Positions 6,416 through 46,476 of a stretch of DNA of 64,000 bases are shown here, piece by piece. Numbering within the stretch: position 1 is the stretch's first letter; the number at the start of each line of letters is the position of its first letter. The position numbers and the translations under genes were made by a program. A model generated the notes under the pieces. The model did not search any database. It was given only the letters and a program-made list of their open reading frames with translations, and was not told where the DNA came from. This DNA is from Vibrio ponticus. GTDB lineage: Bacteria; Pseudomonadota; Gammaproteobacteria; Enterobacterales; Vibrionaceae. The stretch spans positions 1,612,001 to 1,676,000 of the forward strand of contig NZ_AP019657.1 in NCBI RefSeq assembly GCF_009938225.1, written 5' to 3'.

Positions 6416-7843
6416 ATGACACAGACATCTGAAAAACTCTCCCAGCACGTATCGAAACAAGAAGCGCAAATGGCAGAAGTATTAGCAAAGATTGTCCGCG
6501 ACAAATATCAATGGGTCGCGGAGCGCAAACAAACGCAACCACTCGCTGAGTTTCAAACCGAGCTTGAGCCCTCTGATCGCGACTTCTACCAAGCGTTGAG
6601 TGGTGATAAAACCGCGTTCATTCTTGAATGTAAAAAAGCCTCACCGTCAAAGGGGCTGATCCGGAACGATTTTAACTTGGACTACATCGCCGCAACCTAT
6701 GATCGCCACGCAAGTGCAATCTCGGTGCTGACCGATGAAAAATACTTCCAAGGTAATTTTGAGTTTCTGCCGCAAGTGCGCAAACAAGCTCGCCAACCTA
6801 TCTTATGTAAAGATTTTATGGTCGACAGCTACCAAGTGTATCTTGCGCGCCACTATAGCGCGGATGCGATTCTGTTGATGCTGTCAGTATTGGATGATGC
6901 TCAGTATCAAGAACTTGCTGACGTTGCCCATTCTCTGAATATGGGTGTTTTAACTGAAGTGAGCAACGAAGACGAATTGCACCGAGCGGTTAAACTGGGC
7001 GCTAAAGTCATTGGTATTAACAACCGCAACCTGCGCGATCTCAGCACCGATTTAAACCGTACCAAAGAGTTAGCTCCAACCATCCGTGAATTGGCACCCA
7101 ACGCCACGATTATCTCTGAATCGGGGATTTACACCCACCAGCAGGTACGCGAACTGGCTGAGTTTGCCGATGGTTTCTTAATTGGCAGTTCGCTGATGGC
7201 GGAAGATAACCTCGAACAAGCAGTGCGCAAAGTAACCCTCGGACAAAACAAAGTGTGTGGTTTGACCCATTCAGACGATGCTGCTAAAGCGTATCAATCG
7301 GGAGCCATCTATGGCGGTTTGATCTTTGTTGAAGCCTCAAAGCGTTATGTGAGCCCAGAAAATGCTCGTCTCGTGATGAGTGGTGCGCCGCTTAACTATG
7401 TTGGCGTCTTCCAAAACCACCCTGTTGAAATTGTGGCTGAAATTGCTACCCAATTGAACCTTGCTGCGGTGCAGTTACATGGTAGCGAGTCTCAGGAGTA
7501 TGTGGATGTTCTGCGCATTCAACTACCGCAAGAGATCCAGATTTGGAAAGCCTATGGCGTGAGTGATAAACAGGTGCAACGTCTTAGCCGCCATATCGAC
7601 CGCCATCTACTCGATGCTCAAGTCGGCAAACAAAGTGGCGGGACAGGCAAAGTATTTGATTGGTCGTTAATCGGCTGCACCAAAGAAGTGATGCTGGCTG
7701 GCGGATTATCGGCAGATAACGCCCAGCAAGCAGGCACATTAGGCTGCCTCGGTTTAGACCTCAATTCCGGTGTGGAAAGCGCACCAGGTAAAAAAGATTT
7801 AGTTAAGTTGCAACAAGCGTTTGCTGCAATTAGAGAATATTAA
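6416..7843 (+). CDS. trpCF: Bifunctional indole-3-glycerol-phosphate synthase / phosphoribosylanthranilate isomerase
   Basis: Two consecutive (beta/alpha)8 barrels for two successive steps. The N-terminal TrpC barrel (to about residue 275) shows ILECKKASPSKG, and the C-terminal TrpF barrel begins near KVCGLTHSDDA and ends with VMLAGGLSADNA. The fusion is typical of Gammaproteobacteria. ATG 6416 has a well-placed AAGGA. The first 18 residues before MAEVLAKIV extend beyond the E. coli start, so a later start is possible but less likely. Confidence 0.96.
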   Translation: MTQTSEKLSQHVSKQEAQMAEVLAKIVRDKYQWVAERKQTQPLAEFQTELEPSDRDFYQALSGDKTAFILECKKASPSKGLIRNDFNLDYIAATYDRHASAISVLTDEKYFQGNFEFLPQVRKQARQPILCKDFMVDSYQVYLARHYSADAILLMLSVLDDAQYQELADVAHSLNMGVLTEVSNEDELHRAVKLGAKVIGINNRNLRDLSTDLNRTKELAPTIRELAPNATIISESGIYTHQQVRELAEFADGFLIGSSLMAEDNLEQAVRKVTLGQNKVCGLTHSDDAAKAYQSGAIYGGLIFVEASKRYVSPENARLVMSGAPLNYVGVFQNHPVEIVAEIATQLNLAAVQLHGSESQEYVDVLRIQLPQEIQIWKAYGVSDKQVQRLSRHIDRHLLDAQVGKQSGGTGKVFDWSLIGCTKEVMLAGGLSADNAQQAGTLGCLGLDLNSGVESAPGKKDLVKLQQAFAAIREY

Positions 7844-7855
7844 GGAAGACAAGCA

Positions 7856-9046
7856 ATGGCGAAGTTAAATGCCTATTTTGGCGAATACGGCGGTCAATAC
7901 GTCCCGCAAATTCTAGTGCCTGCGCTAGAGCAACTAGAGCAAGCGTTTATTGATGCACAAGAAGATCCTGCATTTCGCAGCGAGTTTATGTCACTGCTGC
8001 AAGAGTATGCGGGTCGCCCAACAGCGTTAACGCTGACTCGTAACCTGACCAAAGGCACCAAAACCAAACTGTATCTAAAGCGTGAAGATTTGCTGCACGG
8101 CGGCGCACACAAGACCAACCAAGTACTTGGTCAAGCATTGCTGGCAAAACGCATGGGTAAAAATGAAATCATCGCTGAAACAGGTGCGGGTCAACACGGT
8201 GTAGCGACTGCCCTAGCCTGTGCACTACTAGGACTAAAATGCCGCGTTTACATGGGCGCGAAAGACGTTGAGCGTCAAAGCCCGAACGTATTTCGCATGA
8301 AACTAATGGGCGCAGAAGTGATCCCGGTGCATTCAGGTTCAGCCACACTAAAAGATGCCTGTAACGAAGCGCTACGCGACTGGTCTGGCAGCTACGAAAC
8401 CGCTCACTACTTGCTAGGTACAGCTGCGGGTCCTCACCCATTCCCGACGATTGTGCGTGACTTCCAGCGCATGATTGGTGAAGAGACCAAAAACCAGATT
8501 TTAGCCCGTGAAGGTCGCCTGCCTGATGCAGTCATTGCCTGTGTGGGTGGTGGCTCTAACGCCATTGGTATGTTTGCCGACTTTATTGAAGAAGAAAGTG
8601 TGCGTCTAATTGGCGTCGAACCAGCAGGTAAAGGCATTGATACAGACCAACATGGTGCACCGCTAAAACATGGCAAAACTGGTATTTTCTTTGGCATGAA
8701 AGCACCACTGATGCAAGATGCCAACGGTCAAGTTGAAGAGTCTTACTCAGTGTCAGCTGGTCTAGATTTCCCATCAGTAGGACCACAACACGCTCACTTA
8801 AATGCGATTGGACGAGCTGAGTATGACAACGTCACCGATGATGAAGCGCTAGAAGCCTTCCAAGAACTTGCGCGTAGCGAAGGGATCATTCCAGCGCTAG
8901 AATCCTCTCACGCACTGGCTCATGCATTGCGCATGGCACGTGAAAACCCAGAACAAGAACAACTACTGGTGGTAAACCTATCGGGTCGTGGTGACAAAGA
9001 CATCTTTACTGTCCACGCCCTCCTAGAAGAAAAAGGAGTGATGTAA
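7856..9046 (+). CDS. trpB: Tryptophan synthase beta chain
   Basis: PLP enzyme that condenses indole with serine. The PLP lysine is K86 in [12 protein letters not shown], the phosphate-binding loop is [10 protein letters not shown], and the C terminus keeps NLSGRGDKD. Its length (396) is standard. Its stop overlaps the trpA start by one base (TAATG), which suggests translational coupling and the 1:1 alpha:beta stoichiometry of the complex. Confidence 0.98.
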
Positions 9047-36888: not shown

Positions 36889-37803
36889 TTATGCGTAGTA
36901 TTGCTTCGCAATGTTTGCGCCAAGGCGTGCGTTGTTTAGCACTAGCTGGATGTTTGAATCTAGGCTGTTACCGCCCGTTAGTTCACATACGCGAGCCAAT
37001 AGGAATGGCGTTGATTCTTTACCGAAGATGCCTTGCTCTTCTGCTTCTTTAAGTGCTGTTTCAATCGCTTCAGTGATTACTTGCGGTGACATTGCAAACT
37101 CGTGTGGAATTGGGTTAGCAATAACAACACCACCTTTTAGACCCATTTCCCACTTTGCTTTTAGCGCAATAGCAATTTCATCAGCGCTGTCTAGGCGGTA
37201 ATCAATACCGTGCTCACTTTCACGGGTGTAGAACGCTGGTAGGCTGTCAGTTTGGTAACCAATCACTGGTACGCCTTGAGTCTCTAGGTACTCACGAGTT
37301 AGCGCAAGGTCAAGGATCGATTTAGCACCCGCGCACACAACAGCAACGTTAGTGTTAGCCAGTTCTTGCAAGTCAGCAGAGATATCAAATGTCTCTTGCG
37401 CACCACGGTGAACGCCGCCGATACCGCCCGTTGCAAATACTTTGATGCCTGCCATTTCAGCAATGATCATCGTAGCGGCTACCGTTGTTGCACCATCTTT
37501 CTTGCCTGCAACCATAAATGGAATATCGCGACGACTTACTTTCGTTACTGCTGTGCCAGCTTGTCCTAGGTGACGAATTTGCTCTTCATCTAGACCCACT
37601 TTTAGGCGACCGCCAATGATAGCGATAGTCGCAGGCACTGCGCCTTGGTCACGGATAGTTTGCTCAACCAACAGTGCAGTTTCAACGTTACGTGGGTAAG
37701 GCATACCGTGAGAAATGATCGTCGACTCTAAAGCCACAACTGGGCGATTATTTACAAGTGCCTCTGCAACTTCTGGTTGAATATCTACATAATTCTCTAA
37801 CAT
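36889..37803 (-). CDS. psuG: Pseudouridine-5'-phosphate glycosidase
   Basis: Cleaves the C-C glycosidic bond of pseudouridine 5'-phosphate to uracil and ribose 5-phosphate, a step in recycling modified nucleosides from RNA. Conserved stretches are ALESTIISHGMPYP, the lysine-containing KVSRRDIPF and the GGIGGVHRGA loop. Length (304) is normal. Its start overlaps the end of psuK by 7 bp, showing coupled expression. No dedicated pseudouridine transporter gene follows, unlike E. coli psuKGT. Confidence 0.95.
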   Translation of the reverse strand: MLENYVDIQPEVAEALVNNRPVVALESTIISHGMPYPRNVETALLVEQTIRDQGAVPATIAIIGGRLKVGLDEEQIRHLGQAGTAVTKVSRRDIPFMVAGKKDGATTVAATMIIAEMAGIKVFATGGIGGVHRGAQETFDISADLQELANTNVAVVCAGAKSILDLALTREYLETQGVPVIGYQTDSLPAFYTRESEHGIDYRLDSADEIAIALKAKWEMGLKGGVVIANPIPHEFAMSPQVITEAIETALKEAEEQGIFGKESTPFLLARVCELTGGNSLDSNIQLVLNNARLGANIAKQYYA

Positions 37804-38891
37804 TGTGAGCTTTCCTCTAATTGACGTTGTACTGCGTGTTCAGACATAGTGGTGTTAATGGTTTTGTCACTCTTGAGTGCCAAGCAAGCTGCCGCTAGGG
37901 CAAAATCGACACTTTGTGACCAAGACCAGTCGCTCATAAACCCATGAGCCAGACCAGCCATTAATGCATCCCCTGCCCCAGTGACGTTATTTACTTGGGT
38001 GGCAGAAGGTGAAATAAATCTTTGCTCTGTTTCGGTGCTTGAGAATGCCCCTTGGCTACCCAAGCTAATCAGCAGTCGCTTAACACCTTTTTGGTGTAGA
38101 GCTTGCGCGACATCTGGAAGCTGATCTAATGACTCAATTTGAATTCCAGAAAGCAGTTCAGCTTCAATTTTGTTTGGTTTTAGGGTGTGAATGCGGTCAA
38201 GATAAGGTTCCAGCTTGCGTGCTTTTACCGAAGAAACCGGGTCAACAAATATCGGTTTGTCACTATGAACGCTAAACAGATAATCGAGTGCACTCTCTGA
38301 TAAGTTGGCATCGAGAATCAATGCACCACAGCGGCTTAGCACACCATCACGGGCAGCTAAGGTTTCACTATTCAGCTGTTCAATCAGCCCCATATCATTA
38401 AGGGCAATATGCATTTCACCATCTGGTCCATGAATGGATAAGTAGCTGCTGGTCGTTGCACCAGTAACCGTCAAGCAATGGTCAACACCGACATTGGCAA
38501 GATGACAAGCTTGCTTAAGTTGCTCCCCCCACTTGTCATCGCCAAGCGCACCAACAAACTGTACTTTGCTGCCGAGGCGACCAAGGTTATCGGCGATATT
38601 ACGTCCCACACCACCAGCGCTGCTAGTTAGCACGCCTGGGTTGGAATCACCAAACACCAGCTCATTGCGAGCTAAACCACATAGATCCATGTTGGCGCCA
38701 CCGATGACTACTGCGTAACGTTCAGGCGCAATCACATAGCCTTTTCCTTGAATAAAACCTTTGCGAGTCAGATTCATAATATGACCCGCAACGGCACTGC
38801 GGCTTAACCCTAATTTATCAGCGAGCGTTTGCTGCGCAATCATCGGATCTTGCTTAATCAGCGCCAGAATTTCATTTTCTCGCTCTGTCAT
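37797..38891 (-). CDS. psuK: Pseudouridine kinase with N-terminal winged-helix domain
   Basis: A PfkB-family kinase that phosphorylates pseudouridine, fused to an N-terminal DNA-binding domain. Residues 1-55 form a winged-helix domain (TERENEILALIKQDP, LADKLGLSRSAVAGHI, GFIQGKGYVI). The kinase follows with VVIGGANMDLCG, GGVGRNIADNLGRLG and the catalytic VTGAGDALMAG. ATG 38891 has GAGG upstream and starts directly at the HTH; the frame extends 21 codons further without homology. E. coli PsuK lacks the HTH, so this is the YeiI-like form. The domain suggests autoregulation through the palindromes just upstream. Confidence 0.9.
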   Translation of the reverse strand: MTERENEILALIKQDPMIAQQTLADKLGLSRSAVAGHIMNLTRKGFIQGKGYVIAPERYAVVIGGANMDLCGLARNELVFGDSNPGVLTSSAGGVGRNIADNLGRLGSKVQFVGALGDDKWGEQLKQACHLANVGVDHCLTVTGATTSSYLSIHGPDGEMHIALNDMGLIEQLNSETLAARDGVLSRCGALILDANLSESALDYLFSVHSDKPIFVDPVSSVKARKLEPYLDRIHTLKPNKIEAELLSGIQIESLDQLPDVAQALHQKGVKRLLISLGSQGAFSSTETEQRFISPSATQVNNVTGAGDALMAGLAHGFMSDWSWSQSVDFALAAACLALKSDKTINTTMSEHAVQRQLEESSQC

Positions 38892-38928
38892 TGTGACCTC
38901 ATTCCACTGGGTGCAACCGCTGCACAAC

Positions 38929-39042
38929 CAAACAATTGTTTGCAATATAAACATTTGTTTTTACACGGCAAACGTTTGCTTATAAATATGTGAGAATATC
39001 CACAAAAAATCAGCGTGTTAATTTCAAACAACCAAACGTTTG
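38929..39042 (-). promoter_or_regulatory. Array of CAAAC/GTTTG palindromes upstream of psuK
   Basis: Four palindromes: CAAACAATTGTTTG (38929-38942), the imperfect AAACATTTGTTT (38949-38960), GCAAACGTTTGC (38968-38979) and CAAACGTTTG (39033-39042). The first lies 38 bp from the psuK start. The kinase's own winged-helix domain is the likeliest binder. GCAAACGTTTGC is also the core of the PurR consensus, an alternative reading for that site. Confidence 0.65.
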
Positions 39043-39116
39043 CAATAACAAAAAATGGGCTTTTTCTCACCTGAATGGGGAAATATCAGGCGCTATCACA
39101 ATCATATCCTTCAAAA

Positions 39117-39186
39117 AACATTAATCGTCAATCGCCAACCATTTATCTCATGCTTTGACCATTTATCACGTCGATTAACCGTTCGT
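39117..39186 (+). promoter_or_regulatory. Array of four LytTR-type binding elements
   Basis: Direct repeats AACATTAAT (39117), ACCATTTAT (39138), ACCATTTAT (39158) and ACCGTTCGT (39178), spaced 21, 20 and 20 bp. Against the published LytTR-family consensus [TA][AC][CA]GTTN[AG][TG] they match at 8, 8, 8 and 9 of 9 positions. Two-turn phasing is what LytTR dimers need. They end 71 bp before the first gene of an operon whose last gene is a LytTR regulator. Confidence 0.65.
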
Positions 39187-39257
39187 CGCATCGTCATGCA
39201 GCGCGCCCGCCATGCTCGTATTCTGAAAGCATTCAGCAAGGAAAAGGAATTTGAACA

Positions 39258-39905
39258 ATGAAATCAGTTAAAACTCTACTCGCCGCCGCTATCGTGACGG
39301 CACTGACTAGCTTCAACTTGTACGCCAACCCAACACCAGAAATTTTGTCCGCTTACAACCAAGCCGCAGATGGCGATAAAGCATTAGTGGACACTGTCTA
39401 TGGTCAATTGAATGCGTTAATTGAAGAGCAAGGCGCTAAACCGCTAAGCCTTGTGTACTTAGGCAGCACAGAAACGCTACAAGGGCGTGATGCATTTATG
39501 CCTTGGAACAAGATGAAATATACCGAGCAAGGTCTCGCCACCATTGCCAAAGGTATGGCTTTGATTGATTCGCTGCCACAAGACATCAACCAACAAGAGC
39601 GTATACAAGGTCTACCTGAAGCCTATCTAGCACAAGCAATGGCAGCGGTCACGTATACCTCTCTGCCTGATCTGTTTAACCATTTTGAGCGCGGTTACGA
39701 CCTATATATCAACCTACTTAATCAACCGGACTTCGCCCATCAACCTTTCGCAGCCAGCGCTTGGGTTTACCGTACTGGAATTGAAGCGGCGCTACGTGCA
39801 GAAGATCTAGCGCAGGCAAAATCATGGTTAGAAGTGATGACTGAACTCGATGCGAACCACGATCAAACCCAAGCAGCACAAACCATGCTTGCTCAACAAA
39901 GCTAA
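39258..39905 (+). CDS. Secreted helical protein, first gene of the ABC/LolA-like operon
   Basis: A 215-residue protein of unknown function. The signal peptide is residues 1-23 (cleaved after LYA). The mature part is almost wholly helical, acidic and without Cys, with a repeat-like arrangement in its C-terminal half (TYTSLPDLFNHFERGYDLY, WVYRTGIEAALRAEDLAQA) reminiscent of TPR-type helices. It lies 9 nt before the ABC ATPase gene. Its place at the head of the operon, nearest the LytTR-type sites, suggests a periplasmic partner or cargo-handling component. Confidence 0.75.
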   Translation: MKSVKTLLAAAIVTALTSFNLYANPTPEILSAYNQAADGDKALVDTVYGQLNALIEEQGAKPLSLVYLGSTETLQGRDAFMPWNKMKYTEQGLATIAKGMALIDSLPQDINQQERIQGLPEAYLAQAMAAVTYTSLPDLFNHFERGYDLYINLLNQPDFAHQPFAASAWVYRTGIEAALRAEDLAQAKSWLEVMTELDANHDQTQAAQTMLAQQS

Positions 39906-39914
39906 GGTGGCGAA

Positions 39915-40613
39915 ATGATCAATTTCAAGCATATCCAGCGTCACTACCAGCTCGGCGGGCAAACCGTACCCGCGCTGAGTGATGTATCAGGCGAAATCGC
40001 AGCTGGGGAAATGGTGGCACTGTGTGGACCGTCTGGCAGTGGGAAAAGCACCCTTCTTAACATTCTTGGTCTGTTAGACATGGACAATCAAGGCAGCATT
40101 GAGCTTAACGGCGCCCCGCTACCGAAAAGCGCAAAGTTAGCGGCACAAGTTCGTCGCTCACAATTTGGCTTTATCTTCCAACGTTTTAACTTGGTGCCTG
40201 TGATGAGCGCGCTAGAAAATGTCGCTTATCCTCTGATGCTAAACGGAGTAAGCAAGACTCAGCAGCAAGTGTTGGCAAGCCAAATGCTAGAAATGGTTGG
40301 TCTTGGCGGTTATCTACACCATTTACCCGACAATCTGTCCGGTGGTCAGCAGCAGCGCGTTGCCATCGCTCGCGCACTCGTGCACAAACCTGCCCTAGTG
40401 ATCGCCGATGAGCCTACCGCGAGCTTAGATAGCAAAACCGCCAATCTGGTCATCGATATCATGCACCGCCTAGGCGCGGAGACCAATACCACCTTTATCG
40501 TTGCCACTCATGATGCGCGCATGGCAAGTCGTTGCGATCGCACCATTGAGTTGCTTGACGGCAAACTCAATCACTATCAACCAAACAACGAGGTGATTTC
40601 ATGGGCAAGTTAA
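39915..40613 (+). CDS. ABC transporter ATP-binding protein (MacB/LolD type)
   Basis: A 232-residue ATPase. Walker A GPSGSGKS is at 38-45, the signature is LSGGQQQRVAIARAL, Walker B is LVIADEPTASLD, and the H-loop is ATHDARMA. The sequence groups with MacB, LolD and FtsE, which work by mechanotransmission rather than by moving cargo through the membrane. It overlaps the permease gene by 13 bp, so the two are coupled and form one complex. Confidence 0.92.
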   Translation: MINFKHIQRHYQLGGQTVPALSDVSGEIAAGEMVALCGPSGSGKSTLLNILGLLDMDNQGSIELNGAPLPKSAKLAAQVRRSQFGFIFQRFNLVPVMSALENVAYPLMLNGVSKTQQQVLASQMLEMVGLGGYLHHLPDNLSGGQQQRVAIARALVHKPALVIADEPTASLDSKTANLVIDIMHRLGAETNTTFIVATHDARMASRCDRTIELLDGKLNHYQPNNEVISWAS

Positions 40614-41866
40614 CCCACGCCATCCTACCAAACTCGCTGCGTTTGGCATGGCTTAACCTAAGACGTAATCAACGTCGTACCTCGTTATCGGTTTTGATTG
40701 TGGCAATCACAGTATTTGCATTAACCAGCACTGGCGGATTTGGGCTGTATACCTATGACAGCTTAAAACAAGCCACTGCGCGCGATATTGGTCATTTGGT
40801 TATTTCAACACCGGGGTACTTTAGCAAAGATGAAGAGATGCCTCTTGCCAATGGCTTAGACAATCCACAGCCACTGATTAATCAATTGATGGCAAACGAG
40901 ATGGTGCGCGGCGCGCAGCCAAGCATTGATTTTACTGGTTTGATTTCGAATGGAAATAAGTCGGCAATTTTCATCGGTCGCGGTGTCAATGACCGAGAAT
41001 TCGATATGAAAGGACCGTTTCTCAATATGGAACAAGGTAAAACCCTTTCCAATATTCGCTCGCCACGTTACGACGCCGCAGAGCCAGAAGTGATGCTGGG
41101 TAGAGACTTAGCGCGTAACTTAAATGTCGCCATTGGCGATTGGGTCACATTGCTAGCAACCACCAGCGAAGGCGCGCTAAACGCTTACGATTTCAAAGTG
41201 CGCGGCACCTATTCAACGGGTGTACCTGAGATGGATAAACGCCAACTCTACATTCACATCAATAGCGCCCAAGAGCTACTGGTGAGCGACAAGATCAGCA
41301 CCATTTCAGTGTTTCTTTTCCAGCTAGAGCAAACTGAACAAGCACAAAGCCAAATCGCAACACTGCTTGAGAGCCAAACGCAAAGCATGCAACTGACACC
41401 TTGGTACGAGCGGGCATTCTACTACCAAAACGTAAAAAGCCTTTATGACCGTATCTTTGGCATCATTGGCGCAATTATGGCGATGGTGGTGTTTGTTTCT
41501 CTGTTTAACACCATGACGATGTCTGTCACAGAAAGAACGCGTGAGATAGGCACTTTGTCAGCGCTAGGCAGCTACCCTGCTGAAATCATCGCAGGTTTCT
41601 CACGTGAAGCTGGGCTCATGGCTCTTATTGGTAGCCTAATTGGCTCCGCCACCGCCGCACTGCTCACGCTGTTTTTGATGCTCGCGGATATCCAAATGCC
41701 ACCCCCTCCGGGGATGAGCCAAGGCTACCCATTGACGATCTATTTTTCAGCTGAACTCGCCATTGCCGCATCGGCAGGCGTGATAACCATCTGCTTAATT
41801 GCTGCGTTTATCTCAGCGCGCAAAGGCGTAAACAAACCCATCACTGAGGCATTGATTCATGTTTAA
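40601..41866 (+). CDS. ABC transporter permease (FtsX/MacB/LolC type)
   Basis: A 421-residue permease with the four-helix FtsX layout: helix 1 at about 28-50, a large periplasmic domain at about 55-270 of the MacB-PCD type, then helices near 285-315, 335-360 and 385-405. The coupling segment is TERTREIGTLSALG. One permease gene suggests a homodimer, as in MacB, rather than LolC/LolE heterodimers. It overlaps the LolA-like gene by 8 bp. The likely role is to extract or push a membrane-derived substrate into the periplasm. Confidence 0.9.
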   Translation: MGKLTHAILPNSLRLAWLNLRRNQRRTSLSVLIVAITVFALTSTGGFGLYTYDSLKQATARDIGHLVISTPGYFSKDEEMPLANGLDNPQPLINQLMANEMVRGAQPSIDFTGLISNGNKSAIFIGRGVNDREFDMKGPFLNMEQGKTLSNIRSPRYDAAEPEVMLGRDLARNLNVAIGDWVTLLATTSEGALNAYDFKVRGTYSTGVPEMDKRQLYIHINSAQELLVSDKISTISVFLFQLEQTEQAQSQIATLLESQTQSMQLTPWYERAFYYQNVKSLYDRIFGIIGAIMAMVVFVSLFNTMTMSVTERTREIGTLSALGSYPAEIIAGFSREAGLMALIGSLIGSATAALLTLFLMLADIQMPPPPGMSQGYPLTIYFSAELAIAASAGVITICLIAAFISARKGVNKPITEALIHV

Positions 41867-42650
41867 ACATTACCTAACTAAACTGTTCACTCGCGCTATC
41901 AAGCTCAGCTGCTTGCTTACCCTTGTTGCCACGCCAGCTATTGCCGCGCTCACGCATACGGATGTCAGTCAACTGCTGGAAAAAGCGGACGACTATCGTC
42001 TCGGCGAAGATTCCGCCAAGGTAGTTTCAGTTGTATCTCTGTTTGAGACTGGCGAGCTCACCAAAACCCGCCACTACCATGTGTACTCGCGCCCTGATCG
42101 CGAGTCATTAGTGGTGTTTAAATCCGCAGTCGAAGCTGGGCAAAAAATGTTGATGCTGCAAGATAACTTTTGGCTACAAATGCCGAAGAGCCGTCGCCCT
42201 ATTCGCATCACGCCAATGCAAAAGCTACTTGGTGAAGCGTCTGTAGGTGACATTAGCTCACTGACTTGGAGCCAAGATTACGTCGGCACTTGGGTCAAAG
42301 ATACCCAAGTAACCGATGAAAATGGTCTGTCATACCCTACTCATCAACTTAAGTTAGAGGCGAAAACCGGCAGTGCGAGCTATCAAAAAATTGTACTTTG
42401 GCTAGAACAAGACACCGGCTTTCCAATAAAAGCAGATTTGTATCTCCGCTCAGGCAAACTGGCTAAACGAGCTTTTTTCATTCGCGGCGTTCGTAATAAC
42501 CAACTCGCCGTGACTGCTATGAGCTTGCTTGATGCTATTCATAACAGCAAAAAAACCGTGATTGAATACCAATCGGTCGAGCCTTGGCAATTAGCTGATA
42601 AGTATTACAACCCAAGCTTTTTAGCACGCAATAACACCACGGAGCTGTAG
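41859..42650 (+). CDS. LolA-like periplasmic carrier (outer-membrane lipoprotein-sorting family)
   Basis: A 263-residue secreted protein with a signal peptide ending near AIAA. The mature part fits the half-open barrel LolA-like family: SRPDRESLVVFKSAVEAG, LMLQDNFWLQMPKSRRPIRI, then TWSQDYVG and LWLEQDTGFPIKADLYL. Such proteins bind acyl chains in a hydrophobic cavity, and their genes often sit beside RND or ABC permeases. It is not the housekeeping LolA, which lies elsewhere in Vibrio and lacks this neighbourhood. It should shuttle a lipid or lipoprotein between the permease and the barrel protein encoded next. Confidence 0.87.
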   Translation: MFKHYLTKLFTRAIKLSCLLTLVATPAIAALTHTDVSQLLEKADDYRLGEDSAKVVSVVSLFETGELTKTRHYHVYSRPDRESLVVFKSAVEAGQKMLMLQDNFWLQMPKSRRPIRITPMQKLLGEASVGDISSLTWSQDYVGTWVKDTQVTDENGLSYPTHQLKLEAKTGSASYQKIVLWLEQDTGFPIKADLYLRSGKLAKRAFFIRGVRNNQLAVTAMSLLDAIHNSKKTVIEYQSVEPWQLADKYYNPSFLARNNTTEL

Positions 42651-42652
42651 CC

Positions 42653-43930
42653 ATGCAACGCCTGTTTTTGACCGTCTTACTCGCCGCCAGCCCGGCACTA
42701 ACGCAAGCACAAAATCTTTATTTAAATTGGGATTGGGCGGTATCGGAAAGTCAGAAACAGTTCACCAGCAGTGCGTTTATTGAACCAAACACTGAGCAGC
42801 GCTTCCAGTTAGATGCTTTGCTTGACGTTGAATTTGCTTACCAAAACTGGAGCGGGATCGGCACCCTCTATAGCCAAGATATTTACCAATCCGATAACCA
42901 CACTTGGTTTGAAGAGAGCGAGTCACAACTGATTGTGCGCGAACTGGCTTGGCAAGGTAGCGTTGAACTCGGCACGCAGAGCTACGATCTCTCGTTAGGA
43001 AAAATTCGCCTCGACTATGGCGTCAGCTATGCTTACCGCCCACTGGATATGTTTAAGCCGTATCGGCAAAACCCCATTGGGCTTAGTGTAGAGGAAGGTG
43101 CGATGGTCGCCGCACTTTCTTCCTTTGATGCCTCCGGCGAATGGTCACTGCTTTATACCAATTCCCACTGGACTGACAATAAGGTTGAGCAATTTGACCA
43201 AGCCAATCAACAGCAAGGTGTTGGTATGCGCCGCTACCAATTACACGGTGCTCATGAATATCAGTTTATCGGCTACTACGACGATGTTAGACGCGGCGCG
43301 ATTGGCGCAAGTTGGGTGACAGTGCCATTACCAGCTTGGGAGTTTCACACTGAAGCGCTGTGGCAAAAACAGAGCATGCAATTTACTCAGCCCATCCAAC
43401 TATTCGCACCAGTCGAGCTCGCCCAAGCTGGCGAGGCGTGGCAAGCATTGGCAGGTTTTACCTATACCGCAATAAGTGGGCATAGTTTTATTGGCGAATA
43501 TTGGTATGACAGCCGCGCATGGAGCGACAGTGAATGGCAAAATGCCATTGAACAAGGACAAGGGTTAAAAAACTCAGCGCAAACATACGCAATCGCCACC
43601 TCTTATGCGCAAGGGCTAAGCCATTACAACTTGACCCAACACAACGTGATGCTGCACTGGCGCTGGGATAGCCAGACATGGCTACAGTGGCAAACCGACG
43701 GCGCTTGGTCTTGGCTTGGCGATGTCACGCCGAAGCTGGATCTGCTTATCTCACCACAAGATGGTGGCGTCGTTGCGACACAATGGATTACATATCAATG
43801 GATTGATAACGGTGATCTATCAATAGATTTGGAATTCACTGCACGATTTTTGAGCGGAAAAAATGAATCTGCTTACGCCCAGGTTAACCAAAGCCATACA
43901 CTAACTTTTACGATTAAAGGAAAATTCTAG
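42653..43930 (+). CDS. Outer-membrane beta-barrel protein of the operon
   Basis: A 425-residue protein. The signal peptide is residues 1-19 (LTQA). Many amphipathic strands rich in Trp, Tyr and Gln follow, and the C-terminal strand ends in Phe (HTLTFTIKGKF), the classical barrel-assembly signal. A conserved-looking block (GKIRLDYGVSYAYRPLDM) recalls the large DUF1302-type barrels that accompany LolA-like proteins in other clusters; that assignment is inference. It starts 2 nt after the LolA-like stop, and its stop overlaps the kinase start by one base. It is the presumed exit or acceptor in the outer membrane. Confidence 0.8.
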   Translation: MQRLFLTVLLAASPALTQAQNLYLNWDWAVSESQKQFTSSAFIEPNTEQRFQLDALLDVEFAYQNWSGIGTLYSQDIYQSDNHTWFEESESQLIVRELAWQGSVELGTQSYDLSLGKIRLDYGVSYAYRPLDMFKPYRQNPIGLSVEEGAMVAALSSFDASGEWSLLYTNSHWTDNKVEQFDQANQQQGVGMRRYQLHGAHEYQFIGYYDDVRRGAIGASWVTVPLPAWEFHTEALWQKQSMQFTQPIQLFAPVELAQAGEAWQALAGFTYTAISGHSFIGEYWYDSRAWSDSEWQNAIEQGQGLKNSAQTYAIATSYAQGLSHYNLTQHNVMLHWRWDSQTWLQWQTDGAWSWLGDVTPKLDLLISPQDGGVVATQWITYQWIDNGDLSIDLEFTARFLSGKNESAYAQVNQSHTLTFTIKGKF

Positions 43931-44976
43931 TGGACGTGTCGAATTTAGTCATTTGCCCCCGTTGGCGCAATTTCATTATTACCAGCTTGTTTTGTCTATT
44001 CGTCGCCGTCACCACATATACGGTTTGGGGTGGCGAGGCTTATGTACATGTCATGACCAGCTTCGGCTATGGTTACTCGGCTCTGCTATCCTCACTTTTT
44101 CTTAATAACGTGTTCCCCAGCCTGCACTCTATGATCGAAACAGCCTTGTCGCTGACGATGTCGATTATTTTAGGCTCACTCAACGCTTGGTTCTGGCTCA
44201 ATACCTATTTCGGCTCCAATCTGTCTGAGCTGCTGCCTGTGGTGATGCTTGGTATCGTATTCTCTGGGATGTGTTTTTACTATTTCTACAACCGAGAACA
44301 AATGGCAATTGCCGATAAGCTTTTAGAAGAGACCAAACGCAAACAGGCGGAACAAGAGAAAGCGCTCATCTTAAGCCAGCTCATGCAGATGCAGAGCCAA
44401 ATTGAACCGCACTTTTTGTTTAATACCTTGGCGAACATTAGCGCGCTAATGACACAAGATATCGACAAGGCGCGCATGATGCTCGATAAGCTCACTGAGC
44501 TTTTGCGCACCACCCTGGCGAATTCGCGTTTATCTCAAACCACCGTCGCTGATGAAGTGCATCAATTGGAAGCTTACTTGGCGATTCAAAAAGTGCGTCT
44601 CGACCAGAGACTGCAATTTAACATCGAAGTCGATGCAGAGTTAGAACACTCTATTTTGCCGCCAATGCTGATCCAGCCCTTAGTGGAAAACTCAATCCAG
44701 CATGGCATTGAGCCCAAAACGGCAGGCGGCGCGATTACGGTGCAAATTTTCGCAGAAAACGACAATATGATTGTAAGAGTCCGTGACACTGGTATTGGGC
44801 TCAGCAACACGCCAAGTACCAAGGGGCAAGGCGTGGGTTTAAGTAACATCAAGCGGCGAGTCAAAGGTCTTTATGACCAACGAGGTAGCGTTGCCGTAAC
44901 CCAGCCTGAACAAGGCGGATTCTGCGTTTCACTCTCAATACCTCTCGATATCACACCAAAATTGTTTACCAGCTAG
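43930..44976 (+). CDS. LytS/YehU-type sensor histidine kinase
   Basis: A 348-residue membrane kinase. Three to four N-terminal helices (about 15-120) are followed by a coiled linker ([14 protein letters not shown]) and the HisKA_5-type phosphoacceptor H161 in [14 protein letters not shown]. The ATPase has [18 protein letters not shown] and [12 protein letters not shown]. It begins at GTG 43930, overlapping the barrel gene stop by one base. It has no PAS or large periplasmic loop, so it probably senses the membrane or a membrane partner. It is paired with the LytTR regulator that follows. Confidence 0.9.
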
Positions 44977-44995
44977 TAAAAGGAACGCCACAACG

Positions 44996-45763
44996 ATGAA
45001 GACGATCACCGCAATTATCGCCGACGACGAACCCCTACTGCGCCATCATTTAGATCGTAGCCTCGCCGACCTTTGGTCTGAGTTGGAAGTTGTCGCTATG
45101 TGCGGGGATGGCGCGCAAGCATTGGAAAAAATTGCCCAGCACCAACCCGATGTGGTGTTTCTCGATATTCGCATGCCAGAGTTAGATGGTTTAGCCGTTG
45201 CTAAAGAGCTAAATCGCTTGGCGCAGCAACCTTTGATGGTGTTTGTTACCGCTTACGATGAGTATGCGATTCAAGCCTTTGAGCAAAACGCAGTCGACTA
45301 TCTTCTCAAACCGATTAATGAAGAGCGCCTAGAGCGCTGCTGCCAAAAGTTGCAACAGCGTTTAAGTACCAATAGTAATCAACAAGCACCTGATATTAAT
45401 CAGCTACTGGCGCAAATCAGCCAATTGACACCAAAACGCGAGCAATACCTAAGCTGGCTTAAAGCAAGCCAAGGTGACGATATTCATCTTATCGCGGTCA
45501 ATGATGTGCTCTATTTTAAAGCTGAAGAGAAGTATGTATCGATTTATACCGATGAGAGTGAGTATTTGATCCGCACCCCTCTTAAAGAGCTGCTTAGCCA
45601 ACTCGATCCCGAGCAGTTCTGGAAGATCCATCGCTCAACGGTAGTCAGAGTCGCCGCGATTGATAAAGTGAGTAAGGATTTTACTGGCAGGATGTTTGTC
45701 AAAATGCTCAATCACAAACTACCCGTTAGCCGCGCACAGCAAAGCCTATTTAGAAGTATGTAG
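44996..45763 (+). CDS. LytTR-family response regulator
   Basis: A 255-residue regulator. The receiver domain (1-120) has D57 as phosphoacceptor in [13 protein letters not shown]. The LytTR DNA-binding domain (about 150-255) has [13 protein letters not shown] and [16 protein letters not shown]. LytTR proteins bind paired 9-bp direct repeats two helical turns apart. Such repeats lie in the promoter of this same operon (39117-39186), so autoregulated control of the ABC/LolA-like system is likely. It is the last gene before a strong palindromic terminator. Confidence 0.92.
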
Positions 45764-45766
45764 TAA

Positions 45767-45788
45767 AAGCCCCTCAATTGAGGGGCTT
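45767..45788. terminator. Bidirectional terminator
   Basis: AAGCCCCTCAA directly followed by TTGAGGGGCTT, with T-rich sequence to the right and an AAAA to the left, so it can stop both the LytTR operon and the convergent importer operon. Confidence 0.92.
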
Positions 45789-45798
45789 CGTTTTTATG

Positions 45799-46476
45799 TT
45801 AGGACAGCGGTCGGAGATAAGCTAAGAAACGCTTCTCTGCGTTTTTGAATATCCACAGAATGATGAACGTCAACGCCATATAGAACAGACCAGCAGTGAG
45901 GAATGACTCAAATGGCGCATAGTAACGAGAGTTCACCAAACGCGCTGCACCGGTAAGGTCAAGAATGGTCACAATACCTGCCACCGCACTACCATGCAGC
46001 ATGAAAATCACTTCATTACTGTAAGCTGGCAGTGCACGACGCAAAGCGCTCGGTAAGATGATACGGCGATAAGTCATAAACGTGCTCATGCCATACGCCT
46101 TGGCTGCTTCGACTTCGCCTTTTGGCAAACCGTTAATTGCACCGCGAATAATTTCGGCAGTGTAAGCAGAAGTATTAAGCACAAAGGCGACCAGCGCGCA
46201 GAACCAAGCGTTTTCCCATAAGGTGTCTTTCACTGGAAAGAATTGATCCATACCGTAGTAAATTAGGTAAAGCTGGACCAAAAGCGGTGTACCTCGGAAA
46301 AAGTAGATGTATCCCCAGCTTGGTAGCATCAAAAGATAGTTACGGCTATTTCGCGTAATTGCCAAAGGTATCGCAACCATTAAGCCTAAGATCAGCGCTA
46401 AACCAACCAGCCAGAAAGTGGTCCAAAGCCCCTCTAAATAGACAGGGAAGCTCTCAATAATCAATGAAAAGTCCAT
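45799..46476 (-). CDS. Basic amino-acid ABC transporter permease (HisM-like)
   Basis: A 225-residue inner-membrane permease with about five helices. The EAA-loop coupling motif is GEVEAAKAYGMSTFMTYRRIILPSALRRALPAYSNE in essence (positions about 133-168), and FRGTPLLVQLYLIYYG is the family signature. It resembles HisM more than ArtM. It is the last gene of a four-gene operon and lies 3 nt after the HisQ-like stop; the two permeases would form a heterodimer. Confidence 0.9.
   Translation of the reverse strand: MDFSLIIESFPVYLEGLWTTFWLVGLALILGLMVAIPLAITRNSRNYLLMLPSWGYIYFFRGTPLLVQLYLIYYGMDQFFPVKDTLWENAWFCALVAFVLNTSAYTAEIIRGAINGLPKGEVEAAKAYGMSTFMTYRRIILPSALRRALPAYSNEVIFMLHGSAVAGIVTILDLTGAARLVNSRYYAPFESFLTAGLFYMALTFIILWIFKNAEKRFLAYLRPLS

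Follow-up and report, generated by a model that had tools for sequence, protein, structure and literature searches.

A seven-gene operon of Vibrio ponticus encoding ABC, LolA-like and outer-membrane barrel proteins: a candidate LytTR-controlled exporter of acyl-chain molecules

The stretch of Vibrio ponticus DNA analysed here, hereafter the window, comprises 64,000 nucleotides (contig NZ_AP019657.1, positions 1,612,001 to 1,676,000 of the forward strand). Between 39258 and 45763 it holds seven open reading frames (ORFs) on one strand, whose neighbours overlap or sit at most 19 bases apart. An earlier sequence-only reading had described them as a tightly packed operon for a secreted helical protein, an ABC ATPase and permease, a LolA-like carrier, a barrel and a LytS/LytTR pair, and had suggested a trans-envelope route. 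The ORFs lie at the coordinates first given and are of the kinds described: Pfam names five of the products, and structure models give a helical gene 1 and a porin-fold barrel. The features, numbered from the first letter of the window, are these:

39138-39147, 39158-39167 and 39178-39187, plus strand: three direct 10-mers ACCRTTYRTC with a period of 20, candidate sites of the operon's LytTR regulator
39258..39905, plus strand: gene 1, secreted TPR-like helical protein, 215 amino acids (Pfam scan, structure model, Foldseek, hhalign)
39915..40613, plus strand: LolD/MacB-type ABC ATPase, 232 amino acids (Pfam, NCBIfam)
40601..41866, plus strand: single FtsX/MacB_PCD permease, 421 amino acids (Pfam, profile against PDB)
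41859..42650, plus strand: LolA_like (PF17131) periplasmic carrier, 263 amino acids (Pfam, PDB 3buu)
42653..43930, plus strand: porin-fold outer-membrane barrel, 425 amino acids, C-terminal Phe
43930..44976, plus strand: LytS-type (His_kinase PF06580) sensor kinase, 348 amino acids (Pfam)
44996..45763, plus strand: LytTR response regulator, 255 amino acids (Pfam)
45767..45788, plus strand: terminator-like hairpin of 9 pairs with a T-rich tail, closing the operon; a consensus match only, of which the region has 8 against 8.1 expected

The inner-membrane and periplasmic parts resemble the Lol pathway (LolCDE-LolA-LolB, LolDF) in kind: a LolD-like ATPase (ABC_tran, E 4e-33), a LolE/LolF-like permease (FtsX, E 1e-17; MacB_PCD, E 6e-16) and a carrier of the LolA superfamily. 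Against PDB structures, the permease profile places LolE top and LolF and MacB next, and it also matches YtrF (E 2.8e-18). The carrier belongs to LolA_like (E 1e-34; 120.2 bits against a gathering cut-off of 30) and matches the LolA-superfamily protein 3buu with an E of 6.9e-24. The ATPase is nearest LolD yet scores 217.6 bits against an NCBIfam cut-off of 307.75, the permease is nearest LolC/E yet reaches 98.1 bits against 362.45, the carrier gave no match to PF03548 (LolA) in the Pfam scan, and the operon has a barrel gene and, by Pfam, no LolB family match among its seven proteins. Elsewhere in the genome there are one canonical LolA (PF03548, 191 bits) and two full LolC/E matches that clear the cut-off (508 and 443 bits). 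Because these are encoded separately, the operon is, by its family matches, not the housekeeping Lol pathway and is accessory to the canonical Lol genes.

The barrel matches no Pfam family at E values up to 1, Omp85 included; its structure model (mean pLDDT 89.1) is a porin-fold barrel, with the Occ/OprD/AlgE fold over the whole barrel, and its last residue is Phe. Gene 1 likewise matches no Pfam family at E up to 1. It is modelled as all helical (pLDDT 91.5), its Foldseek matches are chiefly TPR repeats, none with an E below 1e-3, and by hhalign it is a homologue of the TPR-like protein in relatives that are linked to biosynthesis (E 6.8e-8, probability 94.6). The kinase combines His_kinase (PF06580) with HATPase_c and the regulator combines Response_reg with LytTR (PF04397), the domain make-up of a LytS/LytTR pair; the N-terminus of the kinase holds no sensor domain above the Pfam cut-off.

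Within the genus the parts travel together. The carrier was matched in 140 of 227 Vibrio genomes, two of them by weak matches only (E 7.5e-4 and 1.8e-5), the barrel in 138 and gene 1 in 125. The grouping of the operon's parts is not chance, because carrier and barrel are present in the same 138 genomes. Forty regions were first fetched, 38 of them from the genus and chosen partly to include genomes without gene 1; the order ATPase-permease-carrier-barrel-kinase-regulator is kept in 37 of the 38, and some of these 37 copies appear broken or incomplete. The sole exception, G004 (L125), is a decayed remnant in which only pieces of the carrier, barrel and regulator match, and it is counted within the 138. 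Among plasmid records, large Vibrio replicons give the carrier its top matches.

Outside the genus, the permease profile was run over 394 genomes of the order and found 51 places at 323 bits or above, with the next match at 144.5 bits; by this score the orthologs are cleanly set apart from other permeases. Twenty-nine of these places are non-genus, and the surroundings of 28 were covered, G279 being left out. Fifteen of the 28 have the LytS/LytTR pair, 11 have acyl carrier protein (ACP) or ketosynthase (KS) genes, two of these have both, and four have neither within the stretch. KS and ACP genes were screened for with phmmer from a few seeds, and Pfam confirmation applies only to the cases named. 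The four loci with neither all belong to one family (f10), and in 8 of 8 f10 genomes tested the barrel profile found one barrel, detached, on the strand of the permease gene and some 5-15 kb away from it. Rearranged yet linked versions occur at L152 and L154. By hhalign there is homology among the barrels of the Vibrio, betaproteobacterial (with one gammaproteobacterial metagenome-assembled genome) and biosynthetic branches (E 6.6e-35, probability 99.9; E 2.2e-8, probability 95.3), and because of this the ATPase-permease-carrier-barrel set looks, on the evidence of its sequences, to be inherited as a unit. The sequence-only reading had joined inner-membrane, periplasmic and outer-membrane kinds of parts in one set, and these parts do travel together. 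The opposite pattern, carrier, barrel and ABC genes apart as often as together, was looked for and is not what these genomes display, given the 138 shared genomes, the 37 ordered regions and the linked barrel of f10.

Among the best 80 of at least 558 named relatives, 71 have permease and carrier, 16 the LytS/LytTR pair and 12 KS or ACP genes. On a tree of 98 permeases (a quick tree with long branches and warned joins) the KS/ACP label changes at least 6 times and the LytTR label at least 10, and both labels are strongly clustered. They also avoid each other, with three loci bearing both (Fisher p 2.3e-5, kinship uncorrected). A two-permease order, mostly carrier-permease-permease-ATPase-barrel, is seen at L171-L173 and L226-L250 in Poribacteria, Aminicenantes and others; KS/ACP genes occur in 11 of 51 one-permease loci and in 1 of 27 two-permease named loci (L224), a marginal difference (p 0.049). 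The motif MPPxPG was considered as a signature and set aside as not diagnostic because of its uneven counts across one-permease sets: 37 of 38 in the Vibrio set, 24 of 28 in the order, 40 of 51 named and 0 of 4 plasmid loci. A Plesiomonas shigelloides plasmid (L254, 4949-10957) carries an operon from ATPase to LytTR with no gene 1 annotated, and its permease falls among the Vibrio permeases on the tree. At L150 a MipA-family barrel gene (7729-8529) lies between the carrier and barrel genes.

How might the operon be controlled? LytTR regulators habitually bind direct repeats at a target promoter, and the three 10-mers ahead of gene 1 form two overlapping repeat pairs; with up to 3 mismatches allowed, nothing else in the window matches (expected number of matches 0.18). 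A matrix was built from Vibrio sites picked by eye and run over the window, L103-L170 and L254, that is 70 sequences and 1,180,802 bp with two genomes in twice. It found 66 repeat pairs, 64 of them at the start of the operon (in 42 of the 70 sequences). The remaining two lie directly ahead of the detached barrel-kinase-regulator unit of the split operons L148 and L149, and 574,830 bp of shuffled sequence yielded none. A pair is present in 39 of the 55 sequences that bear the LytS/LytTR genes; KS/ACP-linked loci without a regulator, among the same 70 sequences, have none. Of 19 loci kept outside the training of the matrix, 14 have pairs at a lower threshold, each at the start of the operon or of the barrel unit, some of them within the longest (and probably over-long) version of gene 1; 346,684 bp of shuffled sequence gave 5 pairs at this threshold and 2 at the higher one. 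Seventeen further LytTR loci of other groups were searched for repeats at spacings of 20-22. Clear repeats stand at unit starts in three Nitrospirae-group loci (L205, L228 and L233), where they separate the genes for regulator and ATPase, and in Saccharospirillum (L220), where they precede both of its units; L182 and L198 have single weak repeats, that of L182 away from the operon. The repeats at 39138-39187 are thus candidate binding sites of the operon's own LytTR regulator, and the claim that the operon has its own control gains from their position ahead of both the operon and the detached half of split operons, as far as sequence patterns can tell. Within the same intergenic region, which is bounded on its other side by the divergent gene at 37797-38954, there are two copies of AAACGTTTGC (38970-38979 and 39034-39043), which we take to resemble operators of the LacI/PurR family. 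A sigma-70 scan of 38900-45900 found no plus-strand site.

The neighbours of the relatives bear on the cargo. One biosynthetic form consists of a FabA-like protein, ACP, a GcvT-like protein, tandem KS, KS and an acyltransferase (checked by Pfam on L155 only); it recurs in records of Acinetobacter, Pantoea, Mixta, Silvania, Leclercia, Cedecea, Serratia and Paraburkholderia, and in a Pseudomonas record (L181) in which carrier and acyltransferase were undetected. The ACP/GcvT-like/tandem-KS/acyltransferase cluster accompanies this transporter at L174-L181 and L207 and at L153, L155-L157 and L166, in distant genera, and because of this scatter the cluster, transporter included, is distributed as if it had moved horizontally. 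Plasmids carry the set too, with KS or ACP genes in 2 of 4 by the phmmer screen. On an E. coli IncK2/Z plasmid (L255, NZ_CP060058.1, 2512-13708) the cassette lies inside a small cluster of ACP, KS, SDR and FabA-like genes that also encodes a FeeM-like N-acyl amino acid synthase domain; an Aliiroseovarius plasmid has two KS genes and an anthrone oxygenase; a Paraburkholderia plasmid has a PPTase gene and a pair of very large ORFs with SDR and P450 annotations, and no KS/ACP in the screen. The LytTR branch has examples as well: L103 adjoins SDR, ACP and KS genes; L150 adjoins PPTase, HAD and 3-hydroxyacyl-CoA dehydrogenase (3HCDH) genes and a weak ACP match below the Pfam cut-off (18.1 against 20.8); L151 has ACP, PPTase and HAD by phmmer; and in both L150 and L151 the contig that holds the permease also has KS domains, within very long ORFs some 12 kb away. 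Neighbours of these kinds (ACP, ketosynthase, acyltransferase, FabA-like, PPTase, FeeM-like) suggest that the cargo is a small molecule with an acyl chain and not a lipoprotein, so far as gene content can tell. A count of KS genes near the permease (8 of 19 genomes within 15 kb) was not relied on; it is biased because the 19 genomes were picked after their neighbourhoods had been seen.

Does the operon belong to a system already described? MacAB-TolC consists of a fused ATPase-permease, the MacA adaptor and the TolC duct. A MacB_PCD/FtsX permease is common to both, but in the operon the ATPase is a separate gene and a carrier and porin-type barrel take the place of the TolC duct; by ORFs and Pfam the operon has neither a MacA adaptor gene nor a fused ATPase-permease. 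Membership among RND-LolA lipid exporters was also considered and rejected: the operon has no RND gene. The aryl polyene cluster, as described in PMC8253772, has the LolA-like ApeL, the RND transporter ApeM and the LolB-like DUF3261 protein ApeN. It shares with the operon a LolA-like carrier and a dedicated inner-membrane transporter, there within an ACP/KS cluster, and differs in having RND where the operon has ABC and a LolB-like protein where the operon has a barrel (PMC8253772). The closest counterpart is BBJ23-29 of Borrelia, a predicted export cluster published in February 2026, whose seven described genes include two TPR proteins, an ATPase, one permease, a LolA-like protein and an outer-membrane barrel (PMC13078400). 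In the published model its permease is a homodimer, and LolE is the structure that it matches best (PMC13078400). In our comparison this permease is homologous to that of the operon over nearly its full length (hhalign E 9.8e-26), and the ATPase gene adjoins the permease gene in both; the LolA-like proteins match weakly (E 0.021, probability 2.3), and the Borrelia barrel (BBJ25) and TPR proteins gave no match to their counterparts. The Borrelia barrel is of the Omp85 family, in contrast to the porin-type barrel here, and a kinase-regulator pair is absent from the seven genes described (PMC13078400). The statement that no described system has this set therefore has to be narrowed, since the same kinds of parts are on record; the kinase-regulator pair and the porin-type barrel stay distinctive relative to those seven genes. 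At L220 (4488-8504) a small Omp85-domain gene, a porin-type barrel (E 3.8e-9 to the operon's barrel profile), a LytS kinase and a LytTR regulator form one repeat-headed unit, and in gene content this locus bridges the Borrelia-type and operon-type barrel systems. In V. parahaemolyticus, VPA0021 (LytTR) is listed among differentially expressed two-component genes, with VPA0018 (LolA domain) and VPA0015 (ATP-binding) as predicted partners (PMC10469919); matched by description and not by alignment, the three are apparently this operon. A literature search that covered mainly titles, abstract starts and passages, with subscription papers largely outside it, found no description of the set in Vibrio as a transport system.

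Drawing these lines together, we propose that the operon is a dedicated trans-envelope exporter of a small molecule bearing an acyl or similarly greasy chain, controlled in Vibrio by its LytTR regulator, a reading to which we give a probability of roughly 0.6. In this scheme the single permease, acting as a homodimer together with the ATPase, would lift the molecule from the inner membrane by mechanotransmission like that of LolCDE or LolF. The LolA_like protein may then shield the chain across the periplasm and hand the cargo over to the porin-type barrel for release into or across the outer membrane. Docking in the periplasm is the probable role of the secreted TPR-like protein. The LytS/LytTR pair would sense the cargo or its build-up and switch the operon on, presumably by activation rather than repression, via the repeats at 39138-39187. 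Relative to the earlier proposal of a lipid or lipoprotein route, the likely cargo shifts towards a small acyl-chain molecule, and lipoproteins are disfavoured by the neighbours of some relatives.

Several observations weigh against the exporter. Porin-fold barrels usually import small polar solutes, and the fold is silent on direction. In the window the operon has no biosynthetic cluster next to it, and the genome has two ketosynthase matches only, neither near it. KS or ACP genes occur in just 1 of the 38 genus regions (G230), in 11 of the 28 non-genus loci of the order and in only 12 of the best 80 named loci, and a universal biosynthetic link is rejected because they are seen in a minority of the loci of each set; many betaproteobacterial named loci have neither KS/ACP nor LytTR genes. 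The regulatory part has its own difficulties. The Vibrio repeat count is partly circular because the matrix was trained on sites picked by eye in Vibrio loci; at the higher threshold 16 of the 55 sequences with the LytS/LytTR genes have no pair, 5 of the 19 held-out loci (L150, L158, L160, L161 and L164) lack one even at the lower, and 11 of the 17 further LytTR loci, nearly all betaproteobacterial, have no repeats at spacings of 20-22.

Some of these features would fit a module whose cargo comes from outside, such as an antimicrobial lipopeptide or a bile-like or host lipid, the kinase detecting the cargo or the working transporter and the operon removing it. Bce-type ABC/kinase modules of Gram-positives sense and remove their cargo in this manner. 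The window's operon stands alone with its kinase-regulator pair and no biosynthetic genes adjoining, its kinase lacks an N-terminal sensor domain above the Pfam cut-off, the permease profile also reaches YtrF, and the differential expression of VPA0021 was in macrophage infection (PMC10469919). The same transporter-carrier-barrel set in relatives lies within biosynthetic clusters, however, and Bce-type modules are not known to have a carrier or a barrel; by analogy this explanation may be kept as an unlikely though serious competitor. A second lipoprotein route, taking particular lipoproteins to the outer membrane or the cell surface, would suit an ATPase and permease nearest LolD and LolE/LolF and a carrier family annotated as lipoprotein-sorting, and lipoproteins have been put forward by the authors of the Borrelia study as one possible cargo (PMC13078400). 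We lower it as a first choice because the canonical LolA and LolC/E genes are separate and small-molecule enzymes adjoin some relatives; with no LolB family match among the seven proteins either, it seems rather improbable. Least credible of all, and very improbable in our judgement, is a retrograde system that takes lipid from the outer membrane inwards: the barrel is porin-fold, like the Occ/OprD uptake channels, but MacB/LolE-type permeases are known for outward extraction and some relatives are linked to biosynthesis.

What are the implications of such an exporter beyond V. ponticus? More tentatively than for the operon itself, and at a little under even odds, we suggest that Gram-negatives have a widespread, unnamed class of exporters for ACP-built lipids and polyketides, made up of ATPase, single permease, LolA_like carrier, porin-type barrel and TPR protein. 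The class would exist in two regimes, hard-wired in biosynthetic clusters or free-standing under LytTR control, as in Vibrio, some betaproteobacteria and Nitrospirae; in the second regime the lipid cargo may be endogenous or environmental. To our knowledge, the export of greasy natural products and unusual lipids from Gram-negative cells is largely unsettled, and conserved parts that recur with ACP/ketosynthase clusters offer a candidate export route and a marker for export steps in uncharacterised clusters. The LytTR-type direct repeats heading the operon are new in this analysis and may serve as a reporter to reveal the cargo or signal in Vibrio. Since 138 of the 227 Vibrio genomes carry it, one as a remnant, the operon would represent a common and little-studied envelope function in Vibrio.

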